This document shows, piece after piece, positions 7,548 to 42,548 of a DNA stretch of 47,957 nt. The notes under the pieces are model-generated. The model had not been told where the DNA came from, ran no database searches, and saw nothing but the letters and a program-made list of their open reading frames with translations. Both the position numbers and the translations under genes were made by a program. Origin of the DNA: Elainella saxicola E1 (GTDB taxonomy: Bacteria; Cyanobacteriota; Cyanobacteriia; Elainellales; Elainellaceae); assembly GCA_002796835.1 (NCBI GenBank), contig LUGL01000101.1, forward strand, positions 1-47,957, given 5' to 3'. Position 1 is the stretch's first letter, and the number at the start of each line of letters is the position of its first letter.

Positions 7548-7557
7548 ATATGCAAAT

Positions 7558-7582: not shown

Positions 7583-7597
7583 CAAGAATTTGAGGCA

Positions 7598-10066: not shown

Positions 10067-10085
10067 TGCATTATGTCTCCTTCAG

Positions 10086-21574: not shown

Positions 21575-21670
21575 GGACCGCTCATTGCAAAATCAAAAAT
21601 TTGGGTAGGAACTGTTCCAAGCTTGGGACCGTACACATTCTATTTGTCCGGTGTTCCATCAGGTATTTTT

Positions 21671-24600: not shown

Positions 24601-25168
24601 AGATGGCACGATCCGCCGTTGGGATGCCATCACGGGTCAAGCGATTGACGAACCCTTACAAGGGCATACTAATACAGTGAACTCGATTGCCTTCAGTCGA
24701 GACAGCAGGCTGATGGTGAGCGGTAGTTCAGATGGCACGATCCGCCGCTGGGATGCCAGCACAGGTCAAGCGATTGGCGAACCCTTACAAGGGCATATCA
24801 ATTGGGTTAACTCAGTTGCAGTTAGCTCAGATGGCCATCTGATTGCCAGTGGCAGTAGTGATAGTAGCTTGCGATTGTGGAATGCGGCTACCGGTCAGCC
24901 AATTGGGGCTCCTTTGTGGCATTGGGATGCGGTTTATTCTGTGGCTTTCAGCCCAGATGGCAAGGCAGTTGCTAGCGGCAGCTCAGACTACACGGTGCGC
25001 CTATGGTCCATCTTTCAAGAGAGCTGGCTGCAAACCGCTTGTGAAAAACTGCAATATCACTCCCTGTTGCTCCAACCCACAACTGATGTTGCCAAAGAAG
25101 CTAAGCGAACTTGCGATCGCTCTGTTTACAGCACTCCTGCCTACAAATTGGAAAAGGAAGTGAGTTAG
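21671..25168 (+). CDS. STAND NTPase with 12 WD40 repeats
   Basis: From the ATG at 21671 the protein has 1165 residues. Residues 18-36 carry the GDGN motif shared with the upstream gene. The NTPase domain starts ISPYKGLKTFGPEDKDLFFG, followed by Walker A GASGSGKSS (96-104) and Walker B FIVIDQFEEL near 175. This is the novel STAND class common in cyanobacteria. A membrane helix lies near 512-533. Twelve WD40 repeats of about 43 residues then run from 23.5 to 25.0 kb, eleven of them nearly identical. STAND proteins are ligand-triggered switches in defence, cell death or signalling. A matching TPR segment continues in another frame downstream, so the reading frame is probably broken. The start lacks a strong ribosome binding site. 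Confidence 0.88.
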   Translation: MVNTHQDDDRHIAIGEGVAGSTIVSGDGNKVAVHYSETKIIQNRDEVQNRPLITISPYKGLKTFGPEDKDLFFGRHQFVTDLIQQIERTNLILLLGASGSGKSSVIRAGLIPQLAQKYGTRFTHFMFTPDHDPYESLYGSLLGRYKQAEARMAREAKAETLTQVVTTLKTPQDFWFIVIDQFEELFTISAENKRARFIAGLVKLSQHLNQTRSQSVKLVATMRADFLDRLSPYPAFVKITEGHRPLIAEMQTEELRAAIELPAARNGVTFENTSVNLVDEIIKDVKGQAGCLPLLQYTLNLLWEQEVQDGGIHDRMLNYSSYCSLGGVQGALQQHVDSIYRSFSVLEQAAAKKIFLKIVEIGSQEAAGTECQPVRRRASKAEFTDAIETTVLMRLIDENLLVSSTVSSSPIFSTTQATQSTIEIAHEILLTSWTTLNDWIKENREAIALRNRLNDDVALWQQKNRADSELWSRAKLEQALELRRDSTFNQILGGLSQPANQFIDASLAVRERQRRRIVIGLSGFSAITLLLSGFALYQLQQAQRKQVEHLIETSKNLISTDKADATLNAIAAKGLSRSFFVRFPHYSGLDSVDHAIFNTLQYTSERNRISLGSKVYDIAFSPDGKLIASGSDDGNVRRWDVVTNQQVGEPLQGHTNRVNSVAFSPDGKWIVSGSADGTLRRWDAVTGQVIGEPLKGHTGWVNSVVFSPDGRLIASGGGDGTVRLWDAATGQAIGEPLQGHTNWVYSVAFSPDGKLIASGSGDGTVRLWDAATGQAIGEPLQGHTNTAISVAFSPDGKLIASGSLDETIRFWDTTPGQSIGEPLQGYTNVQVASVAFSPDGKQIVSGGDDNAIRRWDVMLGQSIGEPLQGHTGWVNSVVFSPDGKLIASGSRDGTIRRWDAITGQAIDEPLQGHTNWVNSVAFSPDSKLIVSGSGDGTIRRWDVATGQAIGEPLQGHTNWVSSVVLSPDGHLIASGSGDGTIRRWDAITGQAIDEPLQGHTNTVNSIAFSRDSRLMVSGSSDGTIRRWDASTGQAIGEPLQGHINWVNSVAVSSDGHLIASGSSDSSLRLWNAATGQPIGAPLWHWDAVYSVAFSPDGKAVASGSSDYTVRLWSIFQESWLQTACEKLQYHSLLLQPTTDVAKEAKRTCDRSVYSTPAYKLEKEVS
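23512..25012 (+). repeat. Twelve tandem WD40-coding repeats, about 129 bp each
   Basis: The period is about 129 bp (43 codons), with the recurring SVAFSPDGKLIASGSGDGT and RRWDAxTGQAIGEPLQGHTN core. Several neighbouring copies are almost identical at DNA level, for example at 23.8-24.0 kb and 24.3-24.8 kb. This suggests recent duplication or gene conversion within the array. Confidence 0.9.
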
Positions 25169-27585: not shown

Positions 27586-30459
27586 TTAGTAAACAATAGT
27601 TGCAAGTCTTTGTATAAAAGGAACTGTATTTAAATCTTTAGTATCGAAGTCTACTCTGATCGTTAATTTTTTCCGAAGTATGATACTATTATTTCCGTTT
27701 AAATCAGAAATTTCAACGGTAGAACCTAGGACACCTTTGTAAGTTCCTGCGTACATCGGGATGTTTCCATCTACTAAGGTATCTTCATCCCTTACGTCTC
27801 CTTGTAAAGTAAGGGCTTCCCAGGTTTCCCCTTCATTAGAACTGATGAAGACTGAAATAGAAGTTCCGATCGGTTGATAGTACTTTAAAGAAACTTCTAC
27901 GGTTGAGTAGGAATAATCAAATTCAACTGTTTTACTAATCCAGGTAGAGCTAGAAAGATTAGTTTCTAAAGTAAAGAAAGTCTGAGTCAAATCGACAATT
28001 GGACTAATCGAAGAAGATCCCTGGAGGACCATCTTCATGTCTAGTACTTTGGTTCCAGTTGGAAGAGGAATTCCATTTTTAAATAGGATCCAATCTCCTG
28101 CAGTTTTATAAAATAGTTGGAACGAAGTTGATTGCGGGAGCTGTACGGAAGTACCAAACTCGACGTTATGAAAATCTTCTAATCCTTCTATTTGAAAAGT
28201 AACTTCTGATTTGATCGCGCCAGGGACGCCTTGGATTAATTCAAAGGTTAAATCGGATGAGGGAATCGTTTCCCAGATCTGACCTTTTTTGGTAACTAAC
28301 TCACCCCCTACTAGAGGCTGAATACTGGAGACTTCTGAGTTCGCTAAATTGGGTTGGCCTACTTCTGCGATGAATAATTCAGCTCCAGGAACTAAAGGAG
28401 AAATCGTTAGGGCATACTGCCCGACGGTATCAATCGCAACAGGTCGATCGAAAGTAATTTCCGTCAGCTTAGAACCATCGGCGCTAGTCTCAATATTGGA
28501 AGAAAGGATGTAGCCCATTCCGATTACTTCTTCAGTGGGGACATTAAATTTCGTCTTTGTAATTGAAACGTAGGCTGCGGATACTTGAGTTAGCGCTGGT
28601 GCTTTTCTAAAAGCAACTTTAACTCCGGTAAGAATTAAAGGAGCTGAAACTTGAAAGGTCTGACCGATCGAAGAGACTGAAGACTGAAAAGAGACCTGAC
28701 TATTAATTAGCTGGGTTGAATCCACATTGCTAAAAATAGCACTGGCCGTTGCTCTACCATTTGACAATGAAACAGCGTAAGCTTTGTGCTCCAAGTTGGA
28801 TGGAACCTTGAACTTAATCAGAACCGTTCCGTCGATCTGCGCTTTGATACTTCCGTATTCAGAACCTACGGTAGTGCCATCTAGTAATTCAAATTCAGTG
28901 ATCTGTACGTTGCCGAAAGTCAGGATTAAGTTGTCTTCTAAGGGCTTAAAGCCATAGCATTCTAAGGTGACCTCTACGCTTTTTAAAGTGAGGTTGATTT
29001 TTAGTGAGCTATTATTTGCGTCTGCAAAATTTGCAAGAGCTGGAATCTTATTGAAAGAAATAATTCCAAATTCTCTCGTGCTACTTTCAGGCACTCCACC
29101 TGGAGGAGTCAAAATCATTGCAGCTCTAGTACTTTCCTGAGTCCCCAGAGTCACCCATTGGGTAGCTCTTTTTTGAGAGATTAGATTTCTTTTAGAAAGA
29201 GAGGACGTTAGGTAAAGAGGGTTGCCGTCTTTATAGACGATCGAAGTATTAGAGGAGGAAGTGACCAAAGCATTTGAAAAATTAATAGTAGAGCTTTTAA
29301 ATCCGCTTCTTAAACTTAGTTGTCTTGGGGTGATGGCGGCTGTGTAGAGTTGGCTGGTAAAGTCGCTTCTACTTAAGTCAGCAAAAACTTCGGTAAAAAT
29401 TCCAGATAGATTTAGATTTTCATCTCTTCCTCTATCGATCATCTGCCGATCCAGGAGAATCTGTAATAACTTCGTTTCAGAAGCTTCATTCACTTCCCCC
29501 AAGAGAAGAAGATCTGAATTTAAAATGGCTCGGTTCTTAGAGTTGACCGCATGATATTTTTTTCTTAAAAGATCGATCTCGACAGTACCCAGTAGAAAAG
29601 TTCCAGAAGGAATGTTGTTACCTGCCTTTTCAGTGGCAAGCATTTCTACTTCTCCCTTTGCGGTGAGGTAGATAATATATCGGGTATTGGGATCGGTATT
29701 ACTCCGAATCTTGGGAAGCTCTAAATAAGCTGTGTAATTTTTTTCTACTTTGTAGCCTTTTAAATAGACCACGCCTGGGGAGATTGCCACATAAGTTCCG
29801 GCGCTGATGGATAGCTCAAATCCTTTTGCAATAAAATCTCCGGATTCTTCGTACCAACGCTGAGCAAGATACTCTCTGATGGCTGGAGCTAAAAACTCTT
29901 TAGAAACATTTCGACTGTAACCATTATTTTCGTAGTAAAAAACGAGGGGCGTTGTGTCGATTCCCTGGCCGTGAACAATTGCGATTGGGTAGGAATCTTC
30001 GTTTTGAGTAATTCTATAAGATAAAACGAGTCTGTCAGATCCTTCATCTCCGGAGAACCAACCTCCGGCAATTGGATCATTGAGCGAAGAATCTGCTTCA
30101 CCTTCTAGAACGGTAAATTCAGGAACGATGCCAATAAAAGTTCGCTCAGTCGGGGAAACTTCTAAAAGGGTTTCGACCGTATCGATAAAGTAAGCTCCGA
30201 CCGGAGTCTCTATATAAACCTGGCCTGCAGTCACCTTAACTTGATGAGTAGTAGGTCCCATTCTGATCGGAGTTACACTGATTGCCTTGGTGATCGAATA
30301 CTTCGAGTATAGATAAGTAAAGTTTCCGGCCTGCTGGTAATTGATTAACGATTGTAGTTCATGTAGTTCAGCTACTTGGCTTTTTCTATCCGATCTAAAT
30401 AGTATTCTCTGCCAATTTTTTTTTGGATTGAATCTATTGTTATAGTCTTGTATTTGCAT
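27586..30459 (-). CDS. DUF4815-like phage structural protein, long form
   Basis: Starting at the ATG at 30459 the protein has 957 residues; a TTG four codons earlier is possible. The N-terminal 300 residues match the start of the 858-residue protein encoded upstream: both have an AELxELQS segment, GQVYIE/GQLYVE and a DPxxGGxxxxxEGxxRLV block. I assign this to the DUF4815 type of phage structural proteins. The C-terminal 600 residues match the whole 614-residue protein, with IKAQIDGTVLIKF, FIAEVGQPN and SVFISSNEGETWEAL as shared landmarks. All are beta-rich, as expected for baseplate-periphery or fibre-attachment proteins. It is the penultimate gene of the operon. Confidence 0.7.
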   Translation of the reverse strand: MQIQDYNNRFNPKKNWQRILFRSDRKSQVAELHELQSLINYQQAGNFTYLYSKYSITKAISVTPIRMGPTTHQVKVTAGQVYIETPVGAYFIDTVETLLEVSPTERTFIGIVPEFTVLEGEADSSLNDPIAGGWFSGDEGSDRLVLSYRITQNEDSYPIAIVHGQGIDTTPLVFYYENNGYSRNVSKEFLAPAIREYLAQRWYEESGDFIAKGFELSISAGTYVAISPGVVYLKGYKVEKNYTAYLELPKIRSNTDPNTRYIIYLTAKGEVEMLATEKAGNNIPSGTFLLGTVEIDLLRKKYHAVNSKNRAILNSDLLLLGEVNEASETKLLQILLDRQMIDRGRDENLNLSGIFTEVFADLSRSDFTSQLYTAAITPRQLSLRSGFKSSTINFSNALVTSSSNTSIVYKDGNPLYLTSSLSKRNLISQKRATQWVTLGTQESTRAAMILTPPGGVPESSTREFGIISFNKIPALANFADANNSSLKINLTLKSVEVTLECYGFKPLEDNLILTFGNVQITEFELLDGTTVGSEYGSIKAQIDGTVLIKFKVPSNLEHKAYAVSLSNGRATASAIFSNVDSTQLINSQVSFQSSVSSIGQTFQVSAPLILTGVKVAFRKAPALTQVSAAYVSITKTKFNVPTEEVIGMGYILSSNIETSADGSKLTEITFDRPVAIDTVGQYALTISPLVPGAELFIAEVGQPNLANSEVSSIQPLVGGELVTKKGQIWETIPSSDLTFELIQGVPGAIKSEVTFQIEGLEDFHNVEFGTSVQLPQSTSFQLFYKTAGDWILFKNGIPLPTGTKVLDMKMVLQGSSSISPIVDLTQTFFTLETNLSSSTWISKTVEFDYSYSTVEVSLKYYQPIGTSISVFISSNEGETWEALTLQGDVRDEDTLVDGNIPMYAGTYKGVLGSTVEISDLNGNNSIILRKKLTIRVDFDTKDLNTVPFIQRLATIVY

Positions 30460-30464
30460 TTTGA

Positions 30465-32309
30465 TTACCAAACATAGCTAATTACATTTCTTACTAAAGC
30501 GTGAGTGGCGGTATCTGTGGTAGTCATTTCTACTTTGTATCTGAATTTAGTTCGTAGAACATTTAGATATGCGATCGAACTAAGGGGAGTGGCATTGGTA
30601 TATTTGGCTTCCATTAGACGAAGACCTTCATCAATATACTTAACGCTGCCTGCTTCAGTTGTTAGCTCTATCCATTCATCTCCCTGTCCCGGAAGACCCT
30701 CGTTAGAACTAATAAAGACTCTGATCGACTGATTTGCGGTCGGTTTAATATATTGAATTACCACTGCAGCATGGGTGTAAGCTTCAGGATATTTAACTTG
30801 ATTAGAAACAATGACTCCTGCAGTACTTCCCGCATAGAGTGACATGCTGCTTCCTTCTAACCAAAGAACGGGTGAGATGTTGGCAGAATTGCTGATTAAT
30901 CTAGCTCGAACTTCGACGTGATTTGTTTTTACACCCAAGCAAACTAAATTGTTTGGCTGAAACTCTTTCCAATTTGTAGAAGAGATTGAAGTCCGATACT
31001 CATAGACGATCGAAGTGTTGCTTGGAATAATATCTCTCGTGTTTAAGCAGAAGAAAGAGACGTTGGTCAGGTTATCATAAATCCCAAACTTTCCGAGCTC
31101 TACGACCTGTTCATTGGTAGAGAAGTTTGCACAAAGAATTTCATAGGTAAGATCTTCGTAATTAAAAGTATTTAGAGATCTACCATCTTCCGTAGTGTAA
31201 AGGGTGCCCTTCAAGTAAAGCTGGTCTCCGATCAGACCCTTTGTAATGACATCGGGATTTCCAATCTCTGCCGTGAAAATTTCGTACCCTTCTTGAGACG
31301 CTTCCAGCGTAATACAGTAGCTTGTTTTTGGATGAATTAGAACGGGTCTGTTTAAAGTAAAGGTGGTCCAACTACTTCCCGTGTTTGATGGAAGTAAGGT
31401 CGTTGATTCACCTTCAGCGTAATCTAACTTTGAAGGACCCAGATCATTGGCATCTCGAATGTGCAGCTTCAGTTTACCGGTGGCTCCGATCGATCTAAGC
31501 TTCAAATTAATTTGAGTGATGTAGTAGTAATCTGGTAATTCAAAAGTCTGGTTGATCGCATCATGCAGGACGGGGTATTTCTGAGACTGGGTTAACTCTT
31601 TGACCTGAACATCTGGAATAACACCAGGAGCAGTTAGTGAGTCTGCCGCTACGATCGTCGGTTCATCCGTAATATCTGGATATTGAATTGGTAAGAAATT
31701 ATTTGCTCTCGATCTGGGAGCCAGGGCATCCCAATTGGTGATCGTAGATAGAACAACCTGAGTCAGCAGATTATTATAAATTGCTAATCGAGTCTTGCAA
31801 TACCCTTCTGGAGAAACGAGTTCTACAATATGAACCCCGCAAGAAAGACCTGTAGGCAGATTAAATTTAACTCTGATCGTTCCATCGGGTCTCGCTTTAA
31901 TGGTGCCAGGGGCTTTAGGTCCCGACATTGGAGTACCCGCTAGCAAGGTGTAACCTGTTACTTCTTTGCCAGCAATATAGAGTCGATAACCTTCAGAACT
32001 TGGGACCAGCCTTTCTGCTTTGATTTCAACTGAGGTCGTTTTAGAAGTGACTTGCTGAGTGATATAACCCAAGAAACTATTGGTTTCCTGGCTAATCGAA
32101 GAAAGCGGATTACCACTGACAAAAGATTCACTCACTTTCTCTGCTGCCGCTTTAAACAGAATCTTATTTGTGTCTGATATCTGTTGAAGAATGAGCGGCT
32201 TATTTTCTGAGGTCCGACTTAGGAAGCTCGTTGTCTGGGCGATCCAGTCGCACGGAGTAATCTGCTTGAATCCTTCATTTAAAAAGAGTACAGAAGGGGT
32301 GATATACAT
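30465..32309 (-). CDS. Beta-rich tail protein related to the C-terminal part of the 957-residue protein
   Basis: The 614-residue protein is a paralogue of the last 600 residues of the gene that follows it. It shares a segment with GTIKARPDGTIRVKFNLPTG, FTAEIGNPD, ISPVLWLEG and IRVFISSNEG. It lacks the N-terminal DUF4815-like part. The predicted fold is a string of beta-sandwich modules, typical of fibre or baseplate-periphery proteins. Its start at 32309 overlaps the end of the 858-residue gene by 31 nt, and the next gene starts 5 nt after its end. Function beyond virion structure or host binding cannot be read from the sequence. Confidence 0.65.
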   Translation of the reverse strand: MYITPSVLFLNEGFKQITPCDWIAQTTSFLSRTSENKPLILQQISDTNKILFKAAAEKVSESFVSGNPLSSISQETNSFLGYITQQVTSKTTSVEIKAERLVPSSEGYRLYIAGKEVTGYTLLAGTPMSGPKAPGTIKARPDGTIRVKFNLPTGLSCGVHIVELVSPEGYCKTRLAIYNNLLTQVVLSTITNWDALAPRSRANNFLPIQYPDITDEPTIVAADSLTAPGVIPDVQVKELTQSQKYPVLHDAINQTFELPDYYYITQINLKLRSIGATGKLKLHIRDANDLGPSKLDYAEGESTTLLPSNTGSSWTTFTLNRPVLIHPKTSYCITLEASQEGYEIFTAEIGNPDVITKGLIGDQLYLKGTLYTTEDGRSLNTFNYEDLTYEILCANFSTNEQVVELGKFGIYDNLTNVSFFCLNTRDIIPSNTSIVYEYRTSISSTNWKEFQPNNLVCLGVKTNHVEVRARLISNSANISPVLWLEGSSMSLYAGSTAGVIVSNQVKYPEAYTHAAVVIQYIKPTANQSIRVFISSNEGLPGQGDEWIELTTEAGSVKYIDEGLRLMEAKYTNATPLSSIAYLNVLRTKFRYKVEMTTTDTATHALVRNVISYVW

Positions 32310-34855
32310 TGCGCCCTTCTGGTAATCGCAGTAGGCAGCGGATCGACTCTTCTAGATTTCGTTAGTCTAGACTGAGACAGGACCTTTCTATTGCTGTAGG
32401 GAAGGGTTACAAAGCTATCTCTTCCCAAGATGTTCTTACTAAGAGAGCCGCCAGAAGTGTACTTGATCGGCACATCTTTATGGACATATCCTCCGGTGGC
32501 CGCTTGAATTGAAGGTGAGATAGTTCCCGTAAACTGAGGATTCGATACAGCAAGCCGACTCAAATCTTGAAGAGTATTGGTATAGACGCCAATTGGATTG
32601 GTTCCCAGTTGACTAACGGCTTTGTTATACCCGGTGACATCTAGCTGCAGCGTCTCTAGATTGCGGCTGTTTCTTCTAACTCTTTCTGCCAGTTCATTGA
32701 TCTCTGAAAAGTTTAAAACCTTAGTATCCGTTTCAATCACTTCTACTCCATTGGCAAATAATTTAATCGTTGCTAAGGGGAGAAGAGTGTTGGCTGCTGC
32801 AGGAGGTAGGGGATTAGAGCCTGAATCGGAAAGGATGTAACCAATGTTTCCATCTCGATCCAGGGTGATTACTCCAGCCTTGGCTAAATAGTAGGAGTAG
32901 TCCACATAAAAATTACGGTTGGATGCCGGGGTGTCTCCAATAAAGGTAATTGAGTCGGTGTCTCGGTTGAGGACGAAGTCTTTATCAATCGAAAGCGGGC
33001 GAGTATAGGCAAACGACACATAGTAGGTCGTACCAGGGGCAGGCTGATGACTGGCATTCTTCCAGTGAATCTCAGACTGCTTGATTAATTCGTAGTCCGT
33101 GTCATCGTAAACGGTAGATCCTTGAGAAACTTTCGTAATTACGAAAATGCTGTCATCTCCCAACTTATCGGAAGTGCCGGGTGTTGCGCCCCGGACTAAG
33201 GGCTTCATGTTCTCTTCGACTTCAGCAGTCAGGCTGATAATATCGTCTACCGGTCTGAAGCCTAATTGAAAAGAGTTGGATCGGCCTGCGCCTGATAAAG
33301 AGGCAAAGTTCACATCGACCAGTAGCTTGATAGAGTTTCCGATGACCACCAGGCTTGCATCTCTAGATTTAATATCGATTTGAATGCCAATCTGATTGGC
33401 TGAATCTGAAATGCTGGTGGATTCAAACTTCAAGGAATCATTCGAATTTCGGCTAATGATCAGGTTGTTCTTTAACAGCGTTCTTAGCTTGGGAGCGGTT
33501 AATGCCAGTGAAGCCGAAGAGAAGGTAATTCCAGACTCTACGGCTTGGTTCTCTGTTTTATTGAATTCTCCAGCAAGTTTGTCGATCAAGCTCTCTAACG
33601 AGGTAGCTGAATATCCTTGAATATTGACAGTGACTTTTACATTGACGAATTGCTGATTGTAATACAGATTCGTAAAGTTAAAAGTGAGAAGCGTTCGATC
33701 GTCTTTAATATCCTGGTAAACGATTCCACTGCCTAGCGAGAAGGTTCTAAGTGAGGTGGCGTTTCTACCCGCGTAAGTAAAGACTGCAGAATCAACCTTT
33801 GTCGTATCTAAGTTCTTTGGAATTGTTACCGTGGCTGGCGTGCTGAGATTAACTCTGTAGCCTTCAACGTAGGCAACACCGGGAGAGATAGAGAATAAAG
33901 CTTTATCCACCAGGAGAGATTGAGCGGCGGTTAAATTAGCGGTGCCTTTTTGGTAGGTTGTTTGAGTTGTGACGACTAATCTTGCTAATTGATTGTAGTA
34001 ATCTTCTGCTTCGCTCACTCGCTGCTGTAGGTCTGCTGCAATGACTAGGTTTTGTGCAGTGGGTGAGAGACGGGCGGCTGCTTCTGCCGTAGCTAACTGC
34101 TGCTTTAAGTTTTCTAGAGTCGCTTCTGCCTGGGATGCATCCGAAAGAGCTTGTTGCGATCTCTGCTTAGAGTCATTGACTGAGTTTTGAAGCGCATTAT
34201 ATTTAGCTTTGTCTGCGACTGCCCTTTCTCCCGCTGGAAGACTGGAGACTCCTAACCCTTGAACCGCAAAGTTTCCTGATCTTTCAAAGGTATACTCCGC
34301 TAGAATCTTTTCGATATTTTTAAAGGGATTCAGCTCTTTTTGAATAATGCCACCGTCAATCACTCTACCGATCGTAAAGGCGTTGGCATTGTTCAGGGTT
34401 AAAGAGGAATTCCATACCAGTCTAGAAGCTCCTTCCATTCCATAGAGGGCTCCCCCTTTAACGGGATCCCTAAGAGAAGGGTCTTCTACTTCAGTTACGA
34501 CCTTTTCTTCTAGAAGAACTCCAATATTGTATTCCCCGATCATCGGAACTTGAAGACTGGACGCTTCAATCTCTACGACGACTCCTTCAACATAAAGTTG
34601 GCCGGAGCTAACTCCAACAAGTAGGTTTGTTTCTGAAGCAGATACTAGGCTTAACCTTAATCCCGATAGGATCGAGCCTGAAGTAAACAGGGTGTTTAAT
34701 CCTTGCGTCAGGTTGTCATGCAAGATAGACTGCATTTCAATTAATTCTGCAGTCTGAATCGGTTTCCCATGTTCTGGTAGAACTCTTACCCAGCCTTTAC
34801 TGCGAGCGTATCTGTCCGGGTAACTAGGATCGGTTGAATATTGGAAGAGGCTCAT
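32279..34855 (-). CDS. DUF4815-like phage structural protein with coiled coil
   Basis: The 858-residue protein opens with the same block as the 957-residue protein (RSKGWVRVLPEHGKPIQTAE, then GQLYVEG and DPSLRDPVKGG). A long coiled coil (about residues 215-310, rich in Ala, Gln and Glu) interrupts this domain, followed by beta-rich modules to the end. In T4-like phages this place in the gene order, after gp8, is held by gp10-type fibre-attachment proteins. A gp10-like role is therefore possible but rests on position. Its ATG overlaps the stop of the gp8-like gene (ATGA), indicating coupled translation. Confidence 0.7.
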   Translation of the reverse strand: MSLFQYSTDPSYPDRYARSKGWVRVLPEHGKPIQTAELIEMQSILHDNLTQGLNTLFTSGSILSGLRLSLVSASETNLLVGVSSGQLYVEGVVVEIEASSLQVPMIGEYNIGVLLEEKVVTEVEDPSLRDPVKGGALYGMEGASRLVWNSSLTLNNANAFTIGRVIDGGIIQKELNPFKNIEKILAEYTFERSGNFAVQGLGVSSLPAGERAVADKAKYNALQNSVNDSKQRSQQALSDASQAEATLENLKQQLATAEAAARLSPTAQNLVIAADLQQRVSEAEDYYNQLARLVVTTQTTYQKGTANLTAAQSLLVDKALFSISPGVAYVEGYRVNLSTPATVTIPKNLDTTKVDSAVFTYAGRNATSLRTFSLGSGIVYQDIKDDRTLLTFNFTNLYYNQQFVNVKVTVNIQGYSATSLESLIDKLAGEFNKTENQAVESGITFSSASLALTAPKLRTLLKNNLIISRNSNDSLKFESTSISDSANQIGIQIDIKSRDASLVVIGNSIKLLVDVNFASLSGAGRSNSFQLGFRPVDDIISLTAEVEENMKPLVRGATPGTSDKLGDDSIFVITKVSQGSTVYDDTDYELIKQSEIHWKNASHQPAPGTTYYVSFAYTRPLSIDKDFVLNRDTDSITFIGDTPASNRNFYVDYSYYLAKAGVITLDRDGNIGYILSDSGSNPLPPAAANTLLPLATIKLFANGVEVIETDTKVLNFSEINELAERVRRNSRNLETLQLDVTGYNKAVSQLGTNPIGVYTNTLQDLSRLAVSNPQFTGTISPSIQAATGGYVHKDVPIKYTSGGSLSKNILGRDSFVTLPYSNRKVLSQSRLTKSRRVDPLPTAITRRAQCISPLLYSF

Positions 34856-35427
34856 AAGCTGATAATGATTTCAAATTCTGAAACTTTATTAGGTTGTTTA
34901 TAAATCGGAGTGTTGTAGCTGGCCCAATATAGAACTCCGGGATCTTTAACGTCGTAAGCTCGGTAAGCAATTTCATCTTGAGGGGCAGACTCGTTTAGAG
35001 TGAGTCCTTTAAATAAACCGACTGATCGAAAGCTAGGTTCGATAAACTCCACTGCTTGAAGTTCAGCTTTTAAGTAAATATGTCTGGGTTTGAGAATATA
35101 GAAAAGTTCTACAGGGTTTGTTTCTATATCAACTGCCGTCCATTTTTTTCCATTGGCTTCTACTTCGGAACAGTTATTAAAAGGCATCTCTCCACAGCCG
35201 CTAGGTACGACTGGCATTGCTTTGATTGCCTTCTTATAGATGAAGGGATTGGGGATGGTTTTATCTTCTTCTTTTGGTTCTGGCGGATTGATGTCTGAGA
35301 TCCCCGCGCCCCATTCATTCGTCCATGGCGTCGATTGTCCAAAGGCAAAGAAGATATTACTCTCTTGTATAAACCTGAGTAGTCTATCTACTTTTCCAGT
35401 GCTAGTAATAACCTTATTAAATATCAT
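34852..35427 (-). CDS. gp8-like baseplate wedge protein
   Basis: The 191-residue protein contains VDRLLRFIQESNIFFAFGQS followed by TPWTNEW near the start and ends in VSEFEIIISL. T4 gp8, a baseplate wedge subunit, has the same landmarks: a short helix, IFITFGRSEPW and a C-terminal EEINILFTF. The protein here is shorter than T4 gp8 (334 residues), as is common in distant relatives. It is overlapped on both sides by ATGA junctions: with the flavoprotein gene upstream and the 858-residue gene downstream. The assignment is by motif memory and gene order rather than by full alignment. Confidence 0.7.
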   Translation of the reverse strand: MIFNKVITSTGKVDRLLRFIQESNIFFAFGQSTPWTNEWGAGISDINPPEPKEEDKTIPNPFIYKKAIKAMPVVPSGCGEMPFNNCSEVEANGKKWTAVDIETNPVELFYILKPRHIYLKAELQAVEFIEPSFRSVGLFKGLTLNESAPQDEIAYRAYDVKDPGVLYWASYNTPIYKQPNKVSEFEIIISL

Positions 35428-36539
35428 CGATCTAAAATATCCTGAATTATTTCTTGAGCAGTTATTCCAGCAGATATTAATGAGGCTTGTCTGGGTCCAT
35501 CGTAAGTAGTAGCCAAAAGCCCTGTAAAATAAACGTTAGTTTCTGGAATCTTAAAACCTTTATCTAACAAAGGAAAGTTAGGAATATAGGGATTGGTTTG
35601 TATTTCCCGATCAAAAGGAACCAAATTGATATCTGGGATATTTCCACTCAATATCACAATATGATCTAATTGCTTAAATATATCTTCAAGATTATTGCTT
35701 GATGTAGGAAATATTTGAGTAAATTTTCCCGCTACTTCTTTAAGCTTTTCTGCGATGTAAGGAGTGATAGTTGGCTGCCATTGCTTGACTTTATTGAGAT
35801 AATTAATCTGATCGTCAGAGTTCTTTAAAGTCCGGTAGTAGGGACCTAATGCAGTTAGGCTTTTCCATTCAGAATAAGGAGGGGCGGGATACTGATGCAC
35901 TCTAGTCTCATGGTTGACGCACCAGTAAACCGTATTTAGATGAGAGGCTAGTAGGTATACCACTTCTGCTGCCCCCTGCCCACTACCAACTACCGCAATT
36001 TTCTGATTAACCGGAAGATTTTCGATTAATGCCGGTAAGGGGATTATCTTATCTCTTAGTACAGTTTCGGCAATCCAGGTCGGCATTTTCTCTAGAGTAG
36101 AAGTGTAGCCGGTGGCGATGATTACCTTATCTGCTGCGATCTCTTGCGTTTCGGTTACGACGGAAGATTCTTTTATTGAGATGACTTTTTCTTGAATAAA
36201 GTTAGATCCTGCTGATACGTACTCCCAAGTATGTTGAAGATACTCACAAAACTGTCTTCTTGATACCGGAATTTCACACTGTTCAACTTCTCTTTGACTA
36301 TTAGTGTAGGGGATGTCTTTCCCTAAAAAAGAAGTCAATGAAAAGTTCTGCAATTCTTTCCGAAAGGTGACGAGATCAAAGGTCACCGGGCTGCGCATTT
36401 GAATGTCAGGAATTATATTAGGAGCTTGCCAAGTGTGGATGGGAGCTGGATCTATAATTGTAGGGCGAGCCCCTTGCCTCACAAGATCTAAAGCGATTGC
36501 AAGAGATCTAGGTCCTGCTCCTACAATAACGATATTCAT
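35424..36539 (-). CDS. FAD/NAD(P)-dependent flavoprotein, amine N-hydroxylase-like
   Basis: The 371-residue protein has a complete two-dinucleotide fold: FAD-binding GAGPRSLA (7-14), NAD(P)H-binding GSGQGAAE (185-192) and the ATGY motif (142-145). MRSPVTFDLVTFR (48-60) and VSRRQFCEYLQ match the substrate and FAD-contact region of the lysine/ornithine N-monooxygenase group (IucD, SidA, PvdA), slightly shorter than the usual 420-440. These enzymes hydroxylate side-chain amines using O2 and NADPH. The gene lies inside the baseplate operon: its stop overlaps the gp8-like start (ATGA). Upstream is a hairpin (36544-36582) and no ribosome binding site is visible. No siderophore genes are near. Its substrate and its reason for being here are unknown. 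Confidence 0.85.
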   Translation of the reverse strand: MNIVIVGAGPRSLAIALDLVRQGARPTIIDPAPIHTWQAPNIIPDIQMRSPVTFDLVTFRKELQNFSLTSFLGKDIPYTNSQREVEQCEIPVSRRQFCEYLQHTWEYVSAGSNFIQEKVISIKESSVVTETQEIAADKVIIATGYTSTLEKMPTWIAETVLRDKIIPLPALIENLPVNQKIAVVGSGQGAAEVVYLLASHLNTVYWCVNHETRVHQYPAPPYSEWKSLTALGPYYRTLKNSDDQINYLNKVKQWQPTITPYIAEKLKEVAGKFTQIFPTSSNNLEDIFKQLDHIVILSGNIPDINLVPFDREIQTNPYIPNFPLLDKGFKIPETNVYFTGLLATTYDGPRQASLISAGITAQEIIQDILDR

Positions 36540-36543
36540 ATAA

Positions 36544-36582
36544 AAATCTGCTAGCTGAGTGTTAACTATAACTAGCAGATTT
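36544..36582 (-). terminator. Terminator-like hairpin at the flavoprotein start
   Basis: AAATCTGCTAG (36544-36554) and CTAGCAGATTT (36572-36582) are a perfect 11-bp inverted repeat with a 17-nt loop. On the minus strand the stem is followed by TTTAT and then the ATG of the flavoprotein gene (36539). It could end the upstream fibre transcript, attenuate downstream genes, or hide the start codon. Confidence 0.7.
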
Positions 36583-36606
36583 CTGTAGATGAATATTGGG
36601 CTAATG

Positions 36607-38133
36607 CTAGTAACCCTTTACCACTAGTGCTGTCGTGGCTAAGTAAGAAGTTTTACTATAAATTCTTACATATCTACACCAAGCACCTACGCTATACCAG
36701 TCTAAAACTGGATTGGAATCTACTTGAAGATTTACATTATTAACCGTGTTCCAGTAAAAATTATCGGTACTTACTTGAATAATCTTACCGGTTAAGTAGG
36801 CTGCTACTCCGCCAAAACCTCCACTTAAGTTTCCAGGAGCTATTGCAATTGAGTTAACGTATCTTAAGGTCTGATTCCCATCATATAAATCTGCCATGAT
36901 CCACTGATCAGAGGCTGTAGTAGTACCCCCTCCAGTAGTTGATAGTCCGTCAGTTAAGTTAGTATAAGAGGCTGTACAGGCTGCAGATCCATTATAAATA
37001 GAGCTTTGAGATGCAGTAAAGGGCAAACTAATAATGCTAGGGAGAGTAGTGCCTGCGTTACTGTTTTGATTATACCCTTGGATATGGAGTTCTGATATGG
37101 CGATATAGGTAGCTAGAGGTTGATAGATTCTAATGTACCTTCCCCAGGCTCCGACACTAAAACCAAATAAGGAAGAAGTTCCAATACCATCTGTAACTCC
37201 GTTTATAACTGTAGAATTTCTCCAAGTTACTGCATCATCACTTATTTGGATAGTTAATCCATTAATATACTGACTAACCTGAGTACCTCCAGAGCCCCCT
37301 GAGGTTCCTCCAGGATTACCTCCTCCAATAATAACGGTACCAATATAAGAGAAAACTCCTAGATCAGCCTGAAAGTATGAAATGGTATTGGATGCCCCTA
37401 TAGAAACGGCTCCTGTATTAGCCTGCGAATCTGTTAAATTTTCAACAGTTCCTGCAATAACAACAGTGTTGGATTGAGAAAATACATAAGGTAAATTTAC
37501 GATATTTGGAATGGCTGGACCACCTGGATCGGGTTCTCCACCATATCCAGCCATTGCATCTGTAATTGCATCATGAACAAAGGCAGTCGTAGCAATTCTA
37601 GTACTGTCGTCTTCGACTGGAGGAGTGGTTGAATTGGGAGTTCCAGTTAAAGTAGGGGAATCATTCGGAGCTCTATCACTCACTTCTCCTTGAACAAATT
37701 CGGTCGTAGCAATCTTAGTGCTATTATCGTCTGCTGGTGGAGTGGGGGCGGTTGGAACTCCAGTAAAGTTAGGAGAGTTAATTGGAGCGAATTCGTCCAT
37801 TACATCCTGCACATAGGCAGTTGTAGCAACTCTCGTACTGTCATCATCAACAGCAGGAGTAGGAGCGTTAGGAGTTCCTGTAAACGTAGGAGAGTTAATT
37901 GGGGCCTTGCCCATTAATCCCGGCACTGTCGGACTCTCCGGAGTTCCTCCTAAGTCTCCAGTTAATTTGATTGTTCCAAGCTTTGTACTGGATGCCTTTA
38001 ATAGAAGTTCTTCTACAGTTGCTTGTGAAGTAATTAAAGTTCCGCCTATATCTACTACTATAGGTACGACAGAATCTCTTGTAATATCTATAGAACTGGC
38101 ATCAGGTAGTTCTGAAATCTTACGATCTGGCAT
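36607..38133 (-). CDS. Tail fibre protein with two discoidin-like domains
   Basis: The 508-residue protein starts with the phage-fibre leader KISELPDASS and has three tandem 39-residue repeats (about 77-193), each with the pattern SPTFTGTP, a Pro-rich turn, DDSTRVATTAYVQ. This repeat is typical of phage tail fibres. A Gly/Pro linker then leads to two domains (about 210-350 and 360-508) resembling F5/8 type C (discoidin) carbohydrate-binding domains. Each has a YxRIY-like strand (GRYIRIY, CRYVRIY) near its end. It probably recognises cell-surface sugars of the target. No ribosome binding site precedes the ATG at 38133, and a 67-nt gap with a hairpin separates it from the gene before. Confidence 0.8.
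   Translation of the reverse strand: MPDRKISELPDASSIDITRDSVVPIVVDIGGTLITSQATVEELLLKASSTKLGTIKLTGDLGGTPESPTVPGLMGKAPINSPTFTGTPNAPTPAVDDDSTRVATTAYVQDVMDEFAPINSPNFTGVPTAPTPPADDNSTKIATTEFVQGEVSDRAPNDSPTLTGTPNSTTPPVEDDSTRIATTAFVHDAITDAMAGYGGEPDPGGPAIPNIVNLPYVFSQSNTVVIAGTVENLTDSQANTGAVSIGASNTISYFQADLGVFSYIGTVIIGGGNPGGTSGGSGGTQVSQYINGLTIQISDDAVTWRNSTVINGVTDGIGTSSLFGFSVGAWGRYIRIYQPLATYIAISELHIQGYNQNSNAGTTLPSIISLPFTASQSSIYNGSAACTASYTNLTDGLSTTGGGTTTASDQWIMADLYDGNQTLRYVNSIAIAPGNLSGGFGGVAAYLTGKIIQVSTDNFYWNTVNNVNLQVDSNPVLDWYSVGAWCRYVRIYSKTSYLATTALVVKGY
37555..37905 (-). repeat. Three 117-bp tandem repeats in the fibre gene
   Basis: Three successive 117-bp units encode residues 77-115, 116-154 and 155-193 of the fibre. 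The shared core is SPxxTGxPxxxTP followed by STxxATTxFVQ. Such repeats let fibre length change by recombination. Confidence 0.7.
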
Positions 38134-38200: not shown

Positions 38201-40690
38201 CTAGCCGTCGTTGACGAGCCTACTGCTCTCTTCTGAAAGAACTAACGCACCGTCTTCTTGGAGAATATAATTTGTTGAAGAATCATTGGCAGTAGTGTTA
38301 ACGCAAGAGAAGTTTCCTAACGACATTTCTTCTTCAAATTGAATGCGCTCTACATAGAACACTTTGATGCCTGCAGCTTTTTCTTTTTCTATTACGTCTA
38401 TTAAAGTCTTCACTATAGGCTGAGGAATTTCAACTTCTATTACAGCGGCTGAGTTTCGATTGCCATGGTAGAATCCTTTCCCTAACTCAGAAGTCATGTC
38501 TACCTTTAAGAAGGTATTGGTTGTTTGAATATTTTTATAGAGATCTCTAATAATGCTAGTGACTTCAAATTCTAGTAGCTTCGATCGGAGTCCTCTTTCG
38601 GTGATTCCCTTTTCTTGAGTCGTCAAATAACTTCCCACTCTTTCTCGAAACTCTCTCAATCCTTCTTTTCTAAATCGGGTATAGCCAAAGTCTTGAGCAT
38701 ATCTATCCAAGGAGGCCGATCTGGCTTTTGAAAGAAAGGTCCCGTCTTGAGATCTGTTTAAGAATGAGAGTGAAGCAGCCAAGCTTCTTGTGAAAGCTTT
38801 TAATAACTTTCCGAGGTTTCCATGATAGGAAAGCGCCTGCTGACTGACCCAGCTATATTCGAGAGGCCACATGCTTCTTAGTCGATCGAACAGGAAGTTA
38901 CTATGGAATAGATGCTGCTCAAACTCCTTAATGGGGAGTTCTATAATAATTCTCTCTAAATAATTGGCTTCGCTGTCGAGACAGGATGCACTAGTCAGCA
39001 AGGTGGTAATGCTTTCCGTGAAGGGTTCTGCTATAGGGAGCTGCTGCTTCGTTTCTAGATGATTTAGCGCAAAGTACTCAAGGATAGAAGTTATCCAGAA
39101 ATTAGTATTGGATGCTTCTAACGGAGATAGTCCTCCGACGGTTATTAAAGAGTACTCGTCTGGAAATCTCTCTAATCCTTGTTTGGTTAAAGGCTTTACT
39201 ACTTCATATCGATAGTCACCGTTGCTATCCAAGATGAGATCTTCGTTCTCATCTCTTAGGTAAAGTTCGATATCCTTTCCATACCTTTCCCTGAGAAGAC
39301 CTTCCATCTTATTGAGATGGGTTTCAGCCAAGTCTACTCTTCTGAATGCTGAAGTAAAAATGCCTCCATAGATTAGGGTGTCTACTGTTTCAGTTAAATT
39401 AGATAGACTGTGATAGAAGTTTTGACTCTTGTATGAGAAGAGATGATCAAAGATTCCTTCGTAGACATCTGCCGCTGCTTGGAGATATTTTAGGTCTTCC
39501 TGGATGTCGTATAGCTTAAGGCAGGAAATAGCGACCATTACTGCCGTTGAGAATTCATACTCTAGAATTTCGGTGGATTCGTTAAGGGTGTCAGCGTGAG
39601 TCCATCCAAAACTTGGTAAGCCTGTTTTGTGGTTAATCTGATTTAAGAGATAGATTCCCAGGGTTTCTAGAAGGTAGTTGTATTTGTCTTCTTTCCAGTA
39701 GTAGGAATAGAGGGAAAGAGCATAAACTACCCAGGCAATTGCTCTGGTTTGCACTTCTCTAGAGACCAGCGTAAGGTCAGATCTAACTTCAAAACATCCT
39801 TCTGTAAAGCAGCCCTCTTCAAATAATCTGACAATGCGATTGTTGTAGTGATGATCGGCCAAAGGACCATAAAGCTGAGAAGGTTCAGAATAGGTTGCAA
39901 CAAACCTAGGAATAGAGCCATATCGTTTAGTCACTGAGAGGGTATCCACCAGGCGAGATAATCGACTCAGGTTCTGCTCTACGATTTGAACCAGATCAAC
40001 ATCTGAGTCCCCTTTTAAGTAGTAGACTTTTCTTCCTTTTTTGTCATGCCGGTAGTTGGACAGCAGTAAAGAAGAGAGGCTCATTGCAATCTCTTCGATA
40101 TCGGTGGCTTGATCTATTGCAGAATAGTTAAGTGCGTAACCTGGTTTAACTCTGGTTAGTCGATCTGGAATGAGGTAGGGGCCGAAGTAGTGAGCCACCG
40201 TTTCTACGGTAGTTGCAGTCACTCTTTTCAATACTGCAACCTTTAAACCTACTGGAATTTCGACTCTCGTTTCAAACTTTCCAAAGACTGAGATTGGGAC
40301 AAAAAAGTCTTTGATCGCAAATTCTCCTGTAGGTTGACACACGGTTCCCACATCCACATACCAGATAGCCCCCTGTGCATCAGTGGTGCCTCCGACCCAG
40401 TATTGAGTTTCTCCATCCACTTCTCTAGAGATCTGGGTAGGAACTGCGGTCGTCCAAATTCCGCCGCCCTCAAAGCAGCCTACTTCAAAACAGTCATTAC
40501 TAAAGACAGAATGGGAGTCCAGGTTTACCCCAGTGACTTCTCCTTCCACATATCCTGAGTAGCCATAAGAATCTCCTGAGATTAATCGCAGGATAATTTT
40601 ACCGGTGGGAGATAGGTCAGAGCTTCGAGTACTCTCTCCCCCAGGTTGATGAAATGACAAAATGCGATTAAAACACTGAGACTTGCCCAT
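38201..40690 (-). CDS. Large baseplate/tail protein in the gp7/gpI position
   Basis: The 829-residue protein has three parts. The first (about 1-200) is beta-rich. The middle (about 230-550) is helical, with repeated Tyr- and Trp-rich helices such as AIAWVVYALSLYSYYW and the turn GLPSFGWTHADT, a pattern like six-hairpin (alpha/alpha) toroid enzymes. The C-terminal part (about 600-720), with LDRYAQDFGYTRFRKEGLRE, resembles P2 gpI-type proteins that link baseplate to fibre. The motif CFEVGCFEGG (67-76) recurs as CFTEGCFEV (294-302). It follows the baseplate J gene and precedes the fibre, the place of gpI in P2 and gp7 in T4. Any enzymatic role is inference; I see no catalytic residue pair with certainty. 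Confidence 0.65.
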   Translation of the reverse strand: MGKSQCFNRILSFHQPGGESTRSSDLSPTGKIILRLISGDSYGYSGYVEGEVTGVNLDSHSVFSNDCFEVGCFEGGGIWTTAVPTQISREVDGETQYWVGGTTDAQGAIWYVDVGTVCQPTGEFAIKDFFVPISVFGKFETRVEIPVGLKVAVLKRVTATTVETVAHYFGPYLIPDRLTRVKPGYALNYSAIDQATDIEEIAMSLSSLLLSNYRHDKKGRKVYYLKGDSDVDLVQIVEQNLSRLSRLVDTLSVTKRYGSIPRFVATYSEPSQLYGPLADHHYNNRIVRLFEEGCFTEGCFEVRSDLTLVSREVQTRAIAWVVYALSLYSYYWKEDKYNYLLETLGIYLLNQINHKTGLPSFGWTHADTLNESTEILEYEFSTAVMVAISCLKLYDIQEDLKYLQAAADVYEGIFDHLFSYKSQNFYHSLSNLTETVDTLIYGGIFTSAFRRVDLAETHLNKMEGLLRERYGKDIELYLRDENEDLILDSNGDYRYEVVKPLTKQGLERFPDEYSLITVGGLSPLEASNTNFWITSILEYFALNHLETKQQLPIAEPFTESITTLLTSASCLDSEANYLERIIIELPIKEFEQHLFHSNFLFDRLRSMWPLEYSWVSQQALSYHGNLGKLLKAFTRSLAASLSFLNRSQDGTFLSKARSASLDRYAQDFGYTRFRKEGLREFRERVGSYLTTQEKGITERGLRSKLLEFEVTSIIRDLYKNIQTTNTFLKVDMTSELGKGFYHGNRNSAAVIEVEIPQPIVKTLIDVIEKEKAAGIKVFYVERIQFEEEMSLGNFSCVNTTANDSSTNYILQEDGALVLSEESSRLVNDG

Positions 40691-40694
40691 AGTA

Positions 40695-41759
40695 CTACTG
40701 CTGAAGCGTAATGTTTAAGTTAGATAGAGTGAGAAGGCCTGCTTGTTGAACTGGCGCGATAAAAGAAGTAGGGAATAGGATTTGAGAATCTGAGATTCCC
40801 GGTATGCTGAGAACTAAAGCGTTTAAGGTTAAAGGATCTACTCCCTGCCCTAGTTGCATATCATTAAAGTAGTTGGTCAGGATGTTCCTCACCTGAGAGG
40901 TTACTCTGGCCGAATCGTTAAAGTCTTTAATCTTAAGTAAGACATTGATGTTGACTGGAGTCGTCTCGACTGACTCTACTAAAAAAGAGATGCCCGCACA
41001 TTTATTGATTTGAATTGCAATCTGCGCGGCTTCGATGATTCTAGTATCTTGGCTATTAATAAAAGCTGTAATGTATCCAGAGGCTGGATAGGACTCTTTA
41101 ATAAAAACTTTGTTGATTCCCGGAATAGCAAGTAGGGAAGCTTCTACAGAAGTGACGCTGCCTTTCCCAATAGATTGAAGATTTCTAAGAATCCGATCTT
41201 TAAATCGATCGTCATCTTCTGGATCTAACCCTCCTGTCAAAGGACCCTCGGCTCCTCTTGTTAGGTTGTTTCGATATTGTCCAACTGTAAATTTCAAAGA
41301 AGGCATGAAAGAAGAGTAGAGTCTAGTTCCCGCAGGGAGGTTAGACGTTACGCCCTTCACTAATGCTCTGATGTTTAATGTCGTTTCACTGGCCCCCACA
41401 AAACCCTCGCTGACTACTTCATACTGAAAGGCCGAGTCAGCCGTAGAGAGAATTAATCCAGCCGGAACATTGGCATTCCCAACACTAGATTCTACTAATA
41501 CGAATCCAGTCGCCAGGACGCCCTGCTTTCTGGTCAAGCCATAATCTAAGGCACGAAGGTCTAGGTCTTCACCTACTGCACTAAAGACGTAAAAAGCATC
41601 CCGATTAGTCTTAATCTTAAAATCTTGTTCTGAAATAAGAGTGGCTACCGATCTTAAGATGGCATAGATATTGCTGTATCTTGAGAAATTAGCTAAAGGG
41701 GAATTGATTCTTAGAAGAGCGTTCTTAGCGCTCAGTATAATATCGTTTACAGTTCTCAT
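40695..41759 (-). CDS. Baseplate J/gp6-like protein
   Basis: The 354-residue protein has the layout of the baseplate J / gp47 / T4 gp6 family. An N-terminal helical part includes the segment GEDLDLRALDYGLTR, a central beta domain has ANVPAGLILST and LPAGTRLYS, and the later part includes the conserved GGLDPEDDDRFKDRI and IPGINKVFIKE. These proteins form the wedge ring that joins tail tube, sheath and fibres. Its ATG overlaps the stop of the gp25-like gene (ATGA), and the 829-residue gene starts 4 nt after its stop. This is the best single marker that the operon encodes a contractile-tail baseplate. Confidence 0.9.
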   Translation of the reverse strand: MRTVNDIILSAKNALLRINSPLANFSRYSNIYAILRSVATLISEQDFKIKTNRDAFYVFSAVGEDLDLRALDYGLTRKQGVLATGFVLVESSVGNANVPAGLILSTADSAFQYEVVSEGFVGASETTLNIRALVKGVTSNLPAGTRLYSSFMPSLKFTVGQYRNNLTRGAEGPLTGGLDPEDDDRFKDRILRNLQSIGKGSVTSVEASLLAIPGINKVFIKESYPASGYITAFINSQDTRIIEAAQIAIQINKCAGISFLVESVETTPVNINVLLKIKDFNDSARVTSQVRNILTNYFNDMQLGQGVDPLTLNALVLSIPGISDSQILFPTSFIAPVQQAGLLTLSNLNITLQQ

Positions 41760-42169
41760 AGTTGAATCGGAAGAGTTACGCTTGAAGGAGTTCCATCTAT
41801 TGAATATTGGATATCGATATTAACTTTGTCAGGAAGACTGATTGTTAAAGTTACATCTTCTACGGCAGTCTTGTTATCTACATGTGTTAACGCTTGATCG
41901 ATATCCCTACTGGCTTCAGATATCCAACTTACCGTAAGCGGTTCGGATAATCTAGAGTAGATGGGATTGCCAAAATCTAAATCAATCGTGCCCAGTCCTT
42001 CTTCCTCTAAAAGATATCTTCCGATGTAGGCATAGGGCGTTTCAACGCAGCGCCTAATTAAACTATTACTAGGATCAGGATCTATCAGTAAATCATAAAA
42101 AGAACTTCCGTCTTCCGCTTCATCACTTTTTATGATGTCAAGGTCTTCATTATTGAGTTGTAAGTCCAT
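41756..42169 (-). CDS. gp25/W-like baseplate wedge protein
   Basis: I start this gene at the ATG at 42169 (MDLQLNNEDLDIIKSDEAED), four nucleotides past the stop of the gene before; a TTG further upstream would overlap that gene. The 137-residue protein has a helical centre with RRCVETPYAYIGRYLLEEEG and IDQALTHVDNKTAVEDVTLT. It ends in a beta strand, as in gp25-like/Mu gp46-type baseplate proteins. Position directly before the baseplate J gene with an ATGA overlap is where these proteins sit in most contractile systems. Sequence similarity is modest, so the call leans on gene order. Confidence 0.6.
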   Translation of the reverse strand: MDLQLNNEDLDIIKSDEAEDGSSFYDLLIDPDPSNSLIRRCVETPYAYIGRYLLEEEGLGTIDLDFGNPIYSRLSEPLTVSWISEASRDIDQALTHVDNKTAVEDVTLTISLPDKVNIDIQYSIDGTPSSVTLPIQL

Positions 42170-42173
42170 TTGG

Positions 42174-42548
42174 CTAGGCAAGATTAATGGTTGGATATAT
42201 AGAGTACGGTAGCCCAACAATCAAGTGAGGGGTAGGCTCTATTACTCCTAAACTTAGCTGGCCTCTTTTTTCTCCAGCACTTTGGACCGATCTTACCGCT
42301 ATTGTATAAAAGCCATAGGGAAGATCTCCTACGGTTTCGTAGAGAAATAGGGAGCCTTTACCCGACTGCTGCAACGTCTTAGACCATAGCTTCGCTTTGG
42401 AAGTATTGCAGGATATCCAGGAAAAAACTGGATTACTTTTGCTAAAGAAGATCTCCAGGGTGATTAAACTAAACTTTTGATCGACTGTAGGTGGAAAGTA
42501 AACTGCAATTCCATTTGAAATAATAGTTGGAGGAGCGATAGGATTCAT
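42174..42548 (-). CDS. Small beta-rich tail protein
   Basis: The 124-residue protein, taken from the ATG at 42548, begins MNPIAPPTIISNGIAVYFPP and consists of alternating beta strands with a Pro-rich lead, resembling an Ig-like or fibronectin-like sandwich. Such modules decorate tail and baseplate proteins. Its start is 1 nt after the stop of the 1152-residue gene and its stop is 4 nt before the gp25-like gene, so it is embedded in the operon. No specific family is recognised. Confidence 0.55.
   Translation of the reverse strand: MNPIAPPTIISNGIAVYFPPTVDQKFSLITLEIFFSKSNPVFSWISCNTSKAKLWSKTLQQSGKGSLFLYETVGDLPYGFYTIAVRSVQSAGEKRGQLSLGVIEPTPHLIVGLPYSIYPTINLA

Follow-up and report, generated by a model that had tools for sequence, protein, structure and literature searches.

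A flavoprotein with a predicted N-monooxygenase fold belongs to the baseplate cassette of Ma-LMM01-type phages and may oxidize a tail component

The window, that is, the whole stretch of DNA analyzed here, comprises 47,957 nucleotides of Elainella saxicola E1 and lies on a contig of 68,113 bases. Host-like genes (TamB, ABC transporter, Tic22) were found left of ~25.5 kb. From 27.6 kb to beyond the window extends a tail and head module of the type known from phage Ma-LMM01 (LMM01), with homologues of LMM01 gp85-gp95 in order, the sheath and the major head protein among them. Judging from its gene content, we read this module as a putative prophage cut by the contig end. A frameshift in the gp93 homologue was considered and not claimed, as the contig contains a run of N there (L037 near 4780). 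Elsewhere in the window, VapE/DUF3854 primase-helicase, HNH, and integrase-like genes beside tRNA-Glu (4018-7670) look like a separate satellite-type mobile element, and a 1181-aa nSTAND1 NTPase with WD40 repeats near the prophage end (21623-25168) is a possible defense-type gene. A promoter search gave no excess (9 found, 8.4 expected).

The genes of the tail region are listed in Table 1. BW3TFN connects baseplate wedge protein 3 (BW3) to the tail fiber network, as described in the available part of PMC10811340. The first DUF4815 protein is split into two overlapping ORFs (30465-34855); its complete relatives consist of one ORF of 1262-1472 aa. The tail fiber gene has a 67-nt gap on each side, each with a hairpin (-18.8 and -14.3 kcal/mol). 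The two hairpins were rejected as copies of one repeat, with 241 of 500 shuffles scoring as high. Since the F5/8C fiber gene is missing at that place in some relatives (L004, L013, L016, L018, and L066), it is probably an exchangeable fiber module.

Table 1. Features of the tail region of the window
Feature	Position	Strand	Basis
Second DUF4815 tail protein	27586..30471	-	PF16075 2.7e-25
DUF4815 protein, C-terminal continuation	30465..32309	-	phrog_877 positions 676-1137
DUF4815 adsorption-associated tail protein, N-terminal part	32279..34855	-	PF16075 2e-98
BW3TFN, baseplate wedge 3 - tail fiber network connector (A511 gp105 / T4 gp8 type)	34852..35427	-	PF25691 9.9e-20
Flavoprotein, predicted N-monooxygenase fold (phrog_29209, LMM01 gp106 family)	35424..36539	-	ORF, Pfam, PHROGs, tblastn, AF2
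67-nt gap, hairpin then T run (terminator/attenuator-like)	36540..36606	-	fold -18.8 kcal/mol
Tail fiber with F5/8C (discoidin) domains	36607..38133	-	Pfam + PHROGs
BW3-position baseplate protein, 829 aa, 9 Cys, CX4C at 67-72 and 294-299	38201..40690	-	
Baseplate J-like wedge protein	40695..41759	-	PF04865 5.8e-24
gp25-like wedge protein	41756..42220	-	PF04965 3.8e-06, slightly below gathering score

The flavoprotein gene starts with ATG and encodes 371 aa without an internal stop. The motifs GAGPRSLA (residues 7-14), DLVTFR (55-60), ATGY (142-145), and GSGQGAAE (185-192) were all present, in agreement with the initial annotation, which had described a complete FAD/NAD(P)H enzyme gene between a tail fiber gene and a gp8-like gene. 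The F5/8C fiber gene indeed precedes it and BW3TFN follows; the gp8-like character of the latter agrees with its PF25691 match and with the available part of PMC10811340, in which the A511 member (gp105) is similar in fold to T4 gp8. As the initial annotation had noted, the stop codon of the enzyme gene overlaps the BW3TFN start codon, here by 4 nt (ATGA). Co-transcription with the fiber gene is not assured because a hairpin and a T run lie in the 67-nt gap. The Pfam family PF13434 (Lys_Orn_oxgnase) matched the enzyme with 2.4e-15, covering only model positions 4-213 of 339 and ending at residue 203, and it matched 18 of 18 family members tested. By contrast, phrog_29209, labeled 'function unknown' in PHROGs, matched over the full length (2.4e-58, residues 3-370), and Ma-LMM01 gp106 covered 99% of the enzyme with 36% identity in tblastn. 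Conservation across the family, whose 31 proteins fall into 19 clusters at 90% identity, rules out a chance ORF.

In tblastn searches, the enzyme was detected in 10 annotated phage records, all of cyanophages and corresponding to 8 different phages (two genomes are listed twice). It was also present on 30 IMG/VR contigs, the prophage-like locus of the window included; 29 of these loci came from enzyme scans and the last, L120, from a scan for baseplate J. Family members had identities down to 29% to the window enzyme. Ten genome-length records have an LMM01-type sheath at a coverage of at least 80%, and each of them carries the enzyme; four further records with such a sheath hold the sheath gene only, and five weak sheath matches fall outside the enzyme-bearing records. 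We found no LMM01-type phage that lacks the enzyme. DUF4815 homologues occur in 629 phage records, 10 of which carry the enzyme at the tblastn cut-off. The initial annotation could name no baseplate system that carries an enzyme of this kind, but Ma-LMM01 (gp106) and MaMV-DC each carry a full-length member of the same family, annotated as putative lysine/ornithine N-monooxygenase. The enzyme is thus less new than first claimed, and a unique cargo gene was ruled out by the members in annotated phages and IMG/VR contigs. LMM01 gp106 occupies the same place, before BW3TFN and DUF4815. Unlike the copies of these two Microcystis phages, that of the window has a hairpin before it and belongs to a prophage-like locus in a genome of 8.7 Mb. 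Among the matches listed, open-licensed (CC) PMC papers gave no account of the enzyme in phage tails, and the word 'monooxygenase' was absent from the main text of PMC5780444, PMC9927357, PMC12542629, PMC9382816, and PMC10452541. The first of these, in its available part, counts only five late genes.

No cellular member was found among 98 relatives, where the only match besides the window's own copy was partial (5.7e-4), or among 388 genomes of the class, where 81 match (own copy included) and the best other match (1.9e-9) was partial. Two pattern scans of genome contigs gave 33 and 169 pattern matches, 0 of which were confirmed as cellular members; all these scans detect only what falls within their patterns and cut-offs. 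A recent pick-up from a host was rejected, there being no cellular member in the genomes searched. Near whole-length cellular relatives were observed in two uncharacterized cyanobacterial 'LRSP' FAD/NAD(P) proteins (L075, 1123-2352; L081, 1102-2331), which align over most of the length (L075, model positions 2-366) and share the RSP and SITP motifs with the phage enzyme. They differ in being cellular, in lacking GxGQ, and in standing on 3.4 kb of sequence that is free of tail genes; the gene beside them is presumably hemB.

Gene order was examined in LMM01 and My-WqHQDG (two of the 10 annotated records) and in all 30 IMG/VR loci, counting same-strand ORFs of at least 100 aa; L067 ends inside the enzyme gene. 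BW3TFN, followed by DUF4815, was next to the enzyme in 29 of 30 loci, or 30 of 31 with L120, as recognized by a BW3TFN model built from 13 of the same loci, of which 12 homologues are also matched by PF25691. Hence, the enzyme is kept with tail genes in other genomes and not in this one alone, a point on which the initial annotation had made its reading depend. The sole exception was L017, in which fiber genes follow the enzyme in place of BW3TFN; GIY-YIG-like endonuclease genes (recognized by eye) were seen among the tail fiber genes of this locus (9785-10648 and 16374-17078). With starts set at the earliest ATG/GTG/TTG, which may overstate overlaps, the enzyme and BW3TFN frames overlapped in 26 of 29 pairs. 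In reciprocal scans, DUF4815 was found on enzyme-bearing contigs in 22 of 23 loci, the remaining contig starting inside DUF4815. Of the 13 baseplate J loci, 11 had the enzyme; one of the two misses is a contig that ends too early, and the other is a distant J without other cassette genes.

The same order, baseplate J - BW3 - BW3TFN - DUF4815, was found without the enzyme in the Herelleviridae A511, P100, Twort, S25-3, 521B, and 3-521. The Herelleviridae cassette (A511 gp103-gp106, Twort, SPO1) agrees with that of the LMM01-type phages in this order but differs in having no flavoenzyme between BW3 and BW3TFN and a nearly Cys-free BW3. SPO1 is similar, although its protein in the BW3 position is shorter; in Riverwalk one extra gene precedes DUF4815, and in Eldridge tail spikes lie close by. 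Judging from the loci examined, the enzyme appears to have been inserted where BW3 borders on BW3TFN, or behind fiber genes lodged there. These results indicate that the enzyme is a fixed part of the baseplate cassette of one phage lineage and not a single odd gene.

The dN/dS values of the enzyme were 0.12-0.45 (Nei-Gojobori, 8 pairs, 7 of them within the LMM01 cluster), pointing to purifying selection. Together with the invariant motifs described below, these values ruled out a decayed gene. Distances of the enzyme and DUF4815 were correlated over 22 loci (r 0.95, Spearman 0.48) and over 16 thinned loci (r 0.80; Mantel p 1e-4). L017 was left out of both the distance and the dN/dS work. The co-divergence shows shared descent and is not by itself proof of contact.

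The AlphaFold2 model of the enzyme had a mean pLDDT of 91.2 and a pTM of 0.89. Its closest solved structures were N-hydroxylating monooxygenases. KtzI aligned with Z 30.4 over 343 residues (3.1 A, 18% identity), and KtzI, SidA, PvdA, DfoA, and DesB matched with Z 26-30 over the whole fold. The enzyme is thus predicted to have the full three-domain N-monooxygenase fold, and like these PF13434 proteins it contains the FAD motif GxGP and the NADPH motif GxGQ. The FAD-end motif GxGPR and D30 were invariant in 30 of 30 family proteins (L033 is truncated at that end), GxGQ was invariant in 31 of 31, and YPxP, IT, and DGPR were further invariant residues. A loss of FAD-contacting residues, which the initial annotation had considered, was not seen; the motifs are invariant and the predicted fold is complete. 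By contrast, Arg49 and Phe54 stand in place of the ornithine-site Gln and Lys in 31 of 31 proteins. The reference residues are Gln102 and Lys107 of SidA, which we take to have binding-site roles; the Lys position is Ala in three of the four N-monooxygenases compared, and only the Gln is common to all four. Unlike in ornithine N-monooxygenases, the signature MQxxxxKDL reads MRSPxxFDL (beginning MRSP or LRSP) in 31 of 31, the Pfam match is partial, and tail genes surround the gene. Because both ornithine-site residues are replaced, hydroxylation of lysine or ornithine appears doubtful. We therefore did not file the enzyme as a lysine/ornithine hydroxylase, although its fold and cofactor motifs are N-monooxygenase-like.

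Cysteines were counted in the tail proteins. The BW3-position protein had 1.94% Cys versus 0.1-0.5% in gp25, baseplate J, DUF4815, and the fiber; BW3TFN had 0.99% and the enzyme 0.93%. From 18 sources, 16 BW3 sequences were obtained (L021 starts after BW3, L032 gave no match, and BW3 of L015 is cut by the locus end), and in 16 of 16 phages the protein had 0.9-3.8% Cys, 6-50 Cys, and 1-15 CX3-5C pairs. Among the ORFs of the respective locus, it ranked first in Cys content in 10 of 16 cases, second in five (the window included), and fourth in one, and the excess of Cys pairs against shuffles was at or below 50 of 1000 in 12 of 16. Seven residues are invariant among 13 BW3 sequences, C72 and C796 included. 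The BW3-position protein of L120 had 49 Cys and 15 pairs and the BW3-like ORF of L017 had 19 Cys and 3 pairs; the 582-aa ORF at the BW3 place of L032 (6256-8004), not recognized as BW3, had 6 Cys and no pair. Cys pairs were present at the BW3 position in 18 of 19 enzyme-bearing loci versus 1 of 10 enzyme-less controls, which were chosen by us, were placed by position, and include SPO1 15.1 and Eldridge gp085 as uncertain BW3 assignments. These ten controls had 0-7 Cys, with no pair in nine; they come from 12 enzyme-less regions (L098-L109), from which EP_H11 (L108) and POA1180 (L109) were excluded because the cassette was not recognized.

Cysteine richness was not confined to this protein. In the window, the C-terminal part of DUF4815 (1.14%) exceeded BW3 (1.09%), and a LysM/peptidase-type gp95 homologue had 1.89% Cys without a pair. 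The sheath and head proteins of the window phage and LMM01 were cysteine-poor (sheath, 0.13% in both, a single Cys in the window phage), and their sheath, head, and hub-type proteins were mostly without pairs, the LMM01 head protein having one. BW3TFN had zero Cys in LMM01, L020, and L032. The model of the BW3-position protein had a mean pLDDT of 61.6, and its first Cys pair lies in a stretch below 50, at which the pairing geometry is unreadable. It matched phi812 baseplate chain D weakly, and at low confidence its middle part resembled the alpha/alpha-toroid of GH76/2-epimerases. The CX4C pairs may also bind metal.

We propose that the enzyme oxidizes a tail component during assembly, possibly the thiols of the Cys-rich BW3-position protein. 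This reading is tentative, and we put its probability at somewhat below 40%. We infer a phage-restricted, FAD- and NAD(P)H-dependent catalyst of the N-hydroxylating/flavin monooxygenase fold that LMM01-type phages would produce along with their baseplate cassette and that would act on tail proteins. In the version that we favor, its C4a-hydroperoxyflavin, or released H2O2, could oxidize the BW3-position thiols, and perhaps those of BW3TFN, and the resulting disulfides might help to lock the fiber-carrying rim. BW3 cysteine is the best candidate for the target, though an unproven one. The thiol version draws by analogy on yeast FMO, which helps make disulfides (available part of PMC2862711), on FMO2, which does so in a GVSG-dependent manner (available part of PMC11645147), and on phage Milano, which has a disulfide-locked tail (available part of PMC10811340). 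The Cys-rich baseplate protein may be compared with the baseplate of Milano, whose structural proteins have 2.1% Cys; according to the same part of PMC10811340, both sheath and baseplate of Milano are cross-linked, whereas the window phage has one Cys in its sheath.

Several observations count against the thiol version. The Cys pairs and the enzyme travel with one lineage, and L032 has the enzyme together with a BW3-place ORF that lacks a pair. Also to be counted here are the level of the pair excess against shuffles in 12 of 16, the placing of controls by position, the Cys contents of the DUF4815 C-terminal part and of the gp95 homologue, the Cys-free BW3TFN proteins, and possible metal binding by the CX4C pairs. 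In the Milano text (PMC10811340), 'oxidoreductase' gave 0 matches. Canonical flavin-containing monooxygenases carry the motif FxGxxxHxxx(Y/F), and this motif, the GVSG motif of FMO2 activity, and an own CxxC redox pair of the thioredoxin-reductase type were each absent from all 31 enzyme proteins. The O2 supply is also not assured in the hosts of L030-L036.

The main rival is that the fold was recruited as a resident baseplate subunit between BW3 and BW3TFN, where FAD would stabilize it or aid its folding and catalysis would be incidental. Such a structural role, which we consider rather less probable than not and would not prefer, would account for a gene placed between the BW3 and BW3TFN genes, in a cassette that encodes virion proteins (order as in A511 gp103-gp106), and fits the co-divergence with DUF4815, but invariant FAD and NAD(P)H motifs with YPxP, IT, and DGPR are more than a scaffold seems to need. 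The tail-cassette location would also suit a payload packaged in the tail and injected to act in the new host by redox shock, NADPH drain, or counter-defense, and an NADPH-consuming, H2O2-leaking enzyme could conceivably act early. Nevertheless, delivery is very unlikely, as the enzymes of the gene-order loci and L120 are 320-396 aa long without a fused spike, hub, or fiber domain, and the gene sits with peripheral wedge and fiber genes.

Cyanophages often carry metabolic genes. Several are named in the available part of PMC3037559, and the solved structures nearest to the enzyme belong to amine N-hydroxylases, mainly from siderophore pathways, so the enzyme might hydroxylate a small amine or another host metabolite during infection and merely be housed in a structural operon. 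We regard this as unlikely because both ornithine-site residues, Gln and Lys, are replaced in all 31 proteins, because the gene keeps one place in the baseplate cassette even where identity to the window enzyme falls to 29%, and because no cellular member was found in the 388 class genomes and the two contig scans, where a host-derived cargo gene might show. Least probable of all is an N-hydroxylase acting on lysine side chains of tail-fiber or baseplate proteins, even with an N-hydroxylase fold and PF13434 matches throughout the members tested. The same replaced ornithine-site residues stand against it. Moreover, gp25, BW3TFN, DUF4815a, DUF4815b, the fiber, and the BW3-position protein had no column in which Lys was kept throughout or with a single exception, which is weak evidence because BW3TFN, DUF4815, the fiber, and the BW3-position protein have few conserved columns at all. 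A single conserved Lys column was found in baseplate J. With Arg49/Phe54 in every member, the modification of fiber Lys/Arg side chains suggested in the initial annotation was weakened. The hydroxylation of an invariant tail lysine was dropped, as no such Lys column was seen outside baseplate J in the proteins compared.

Returning to oxidation of a tail component during assembly, a bolder form can be considered, although we think it improbable: LMM01-type phages would carry their own cytosolic disulfide-forming or protein-oxidizing flavoenzyme for one baseplate protein. Such a maturation oxidase would cross-link the Cys-paired BW3 rim in the reducing cytosol of the host, giving a redox-set trigger or a shear-proof attachment of the fiber network. 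To our knowledge, it is rare for a part of a phage tail to depend on a catalytic step of its own for maturation. The fixation of the enzyme in the baseplate cassette despite ~30% identity suggests that tail assembly or function in this lineage needs redox chemistry. If disulfides are formed in the cytosol, the enzyme would address how a disulfide-locked tail gets built inside a reducing cell, and if it is the cytosolic disulfide former, this would be a first function for a Ma-LMM01 gene annotated by resemblance alone.
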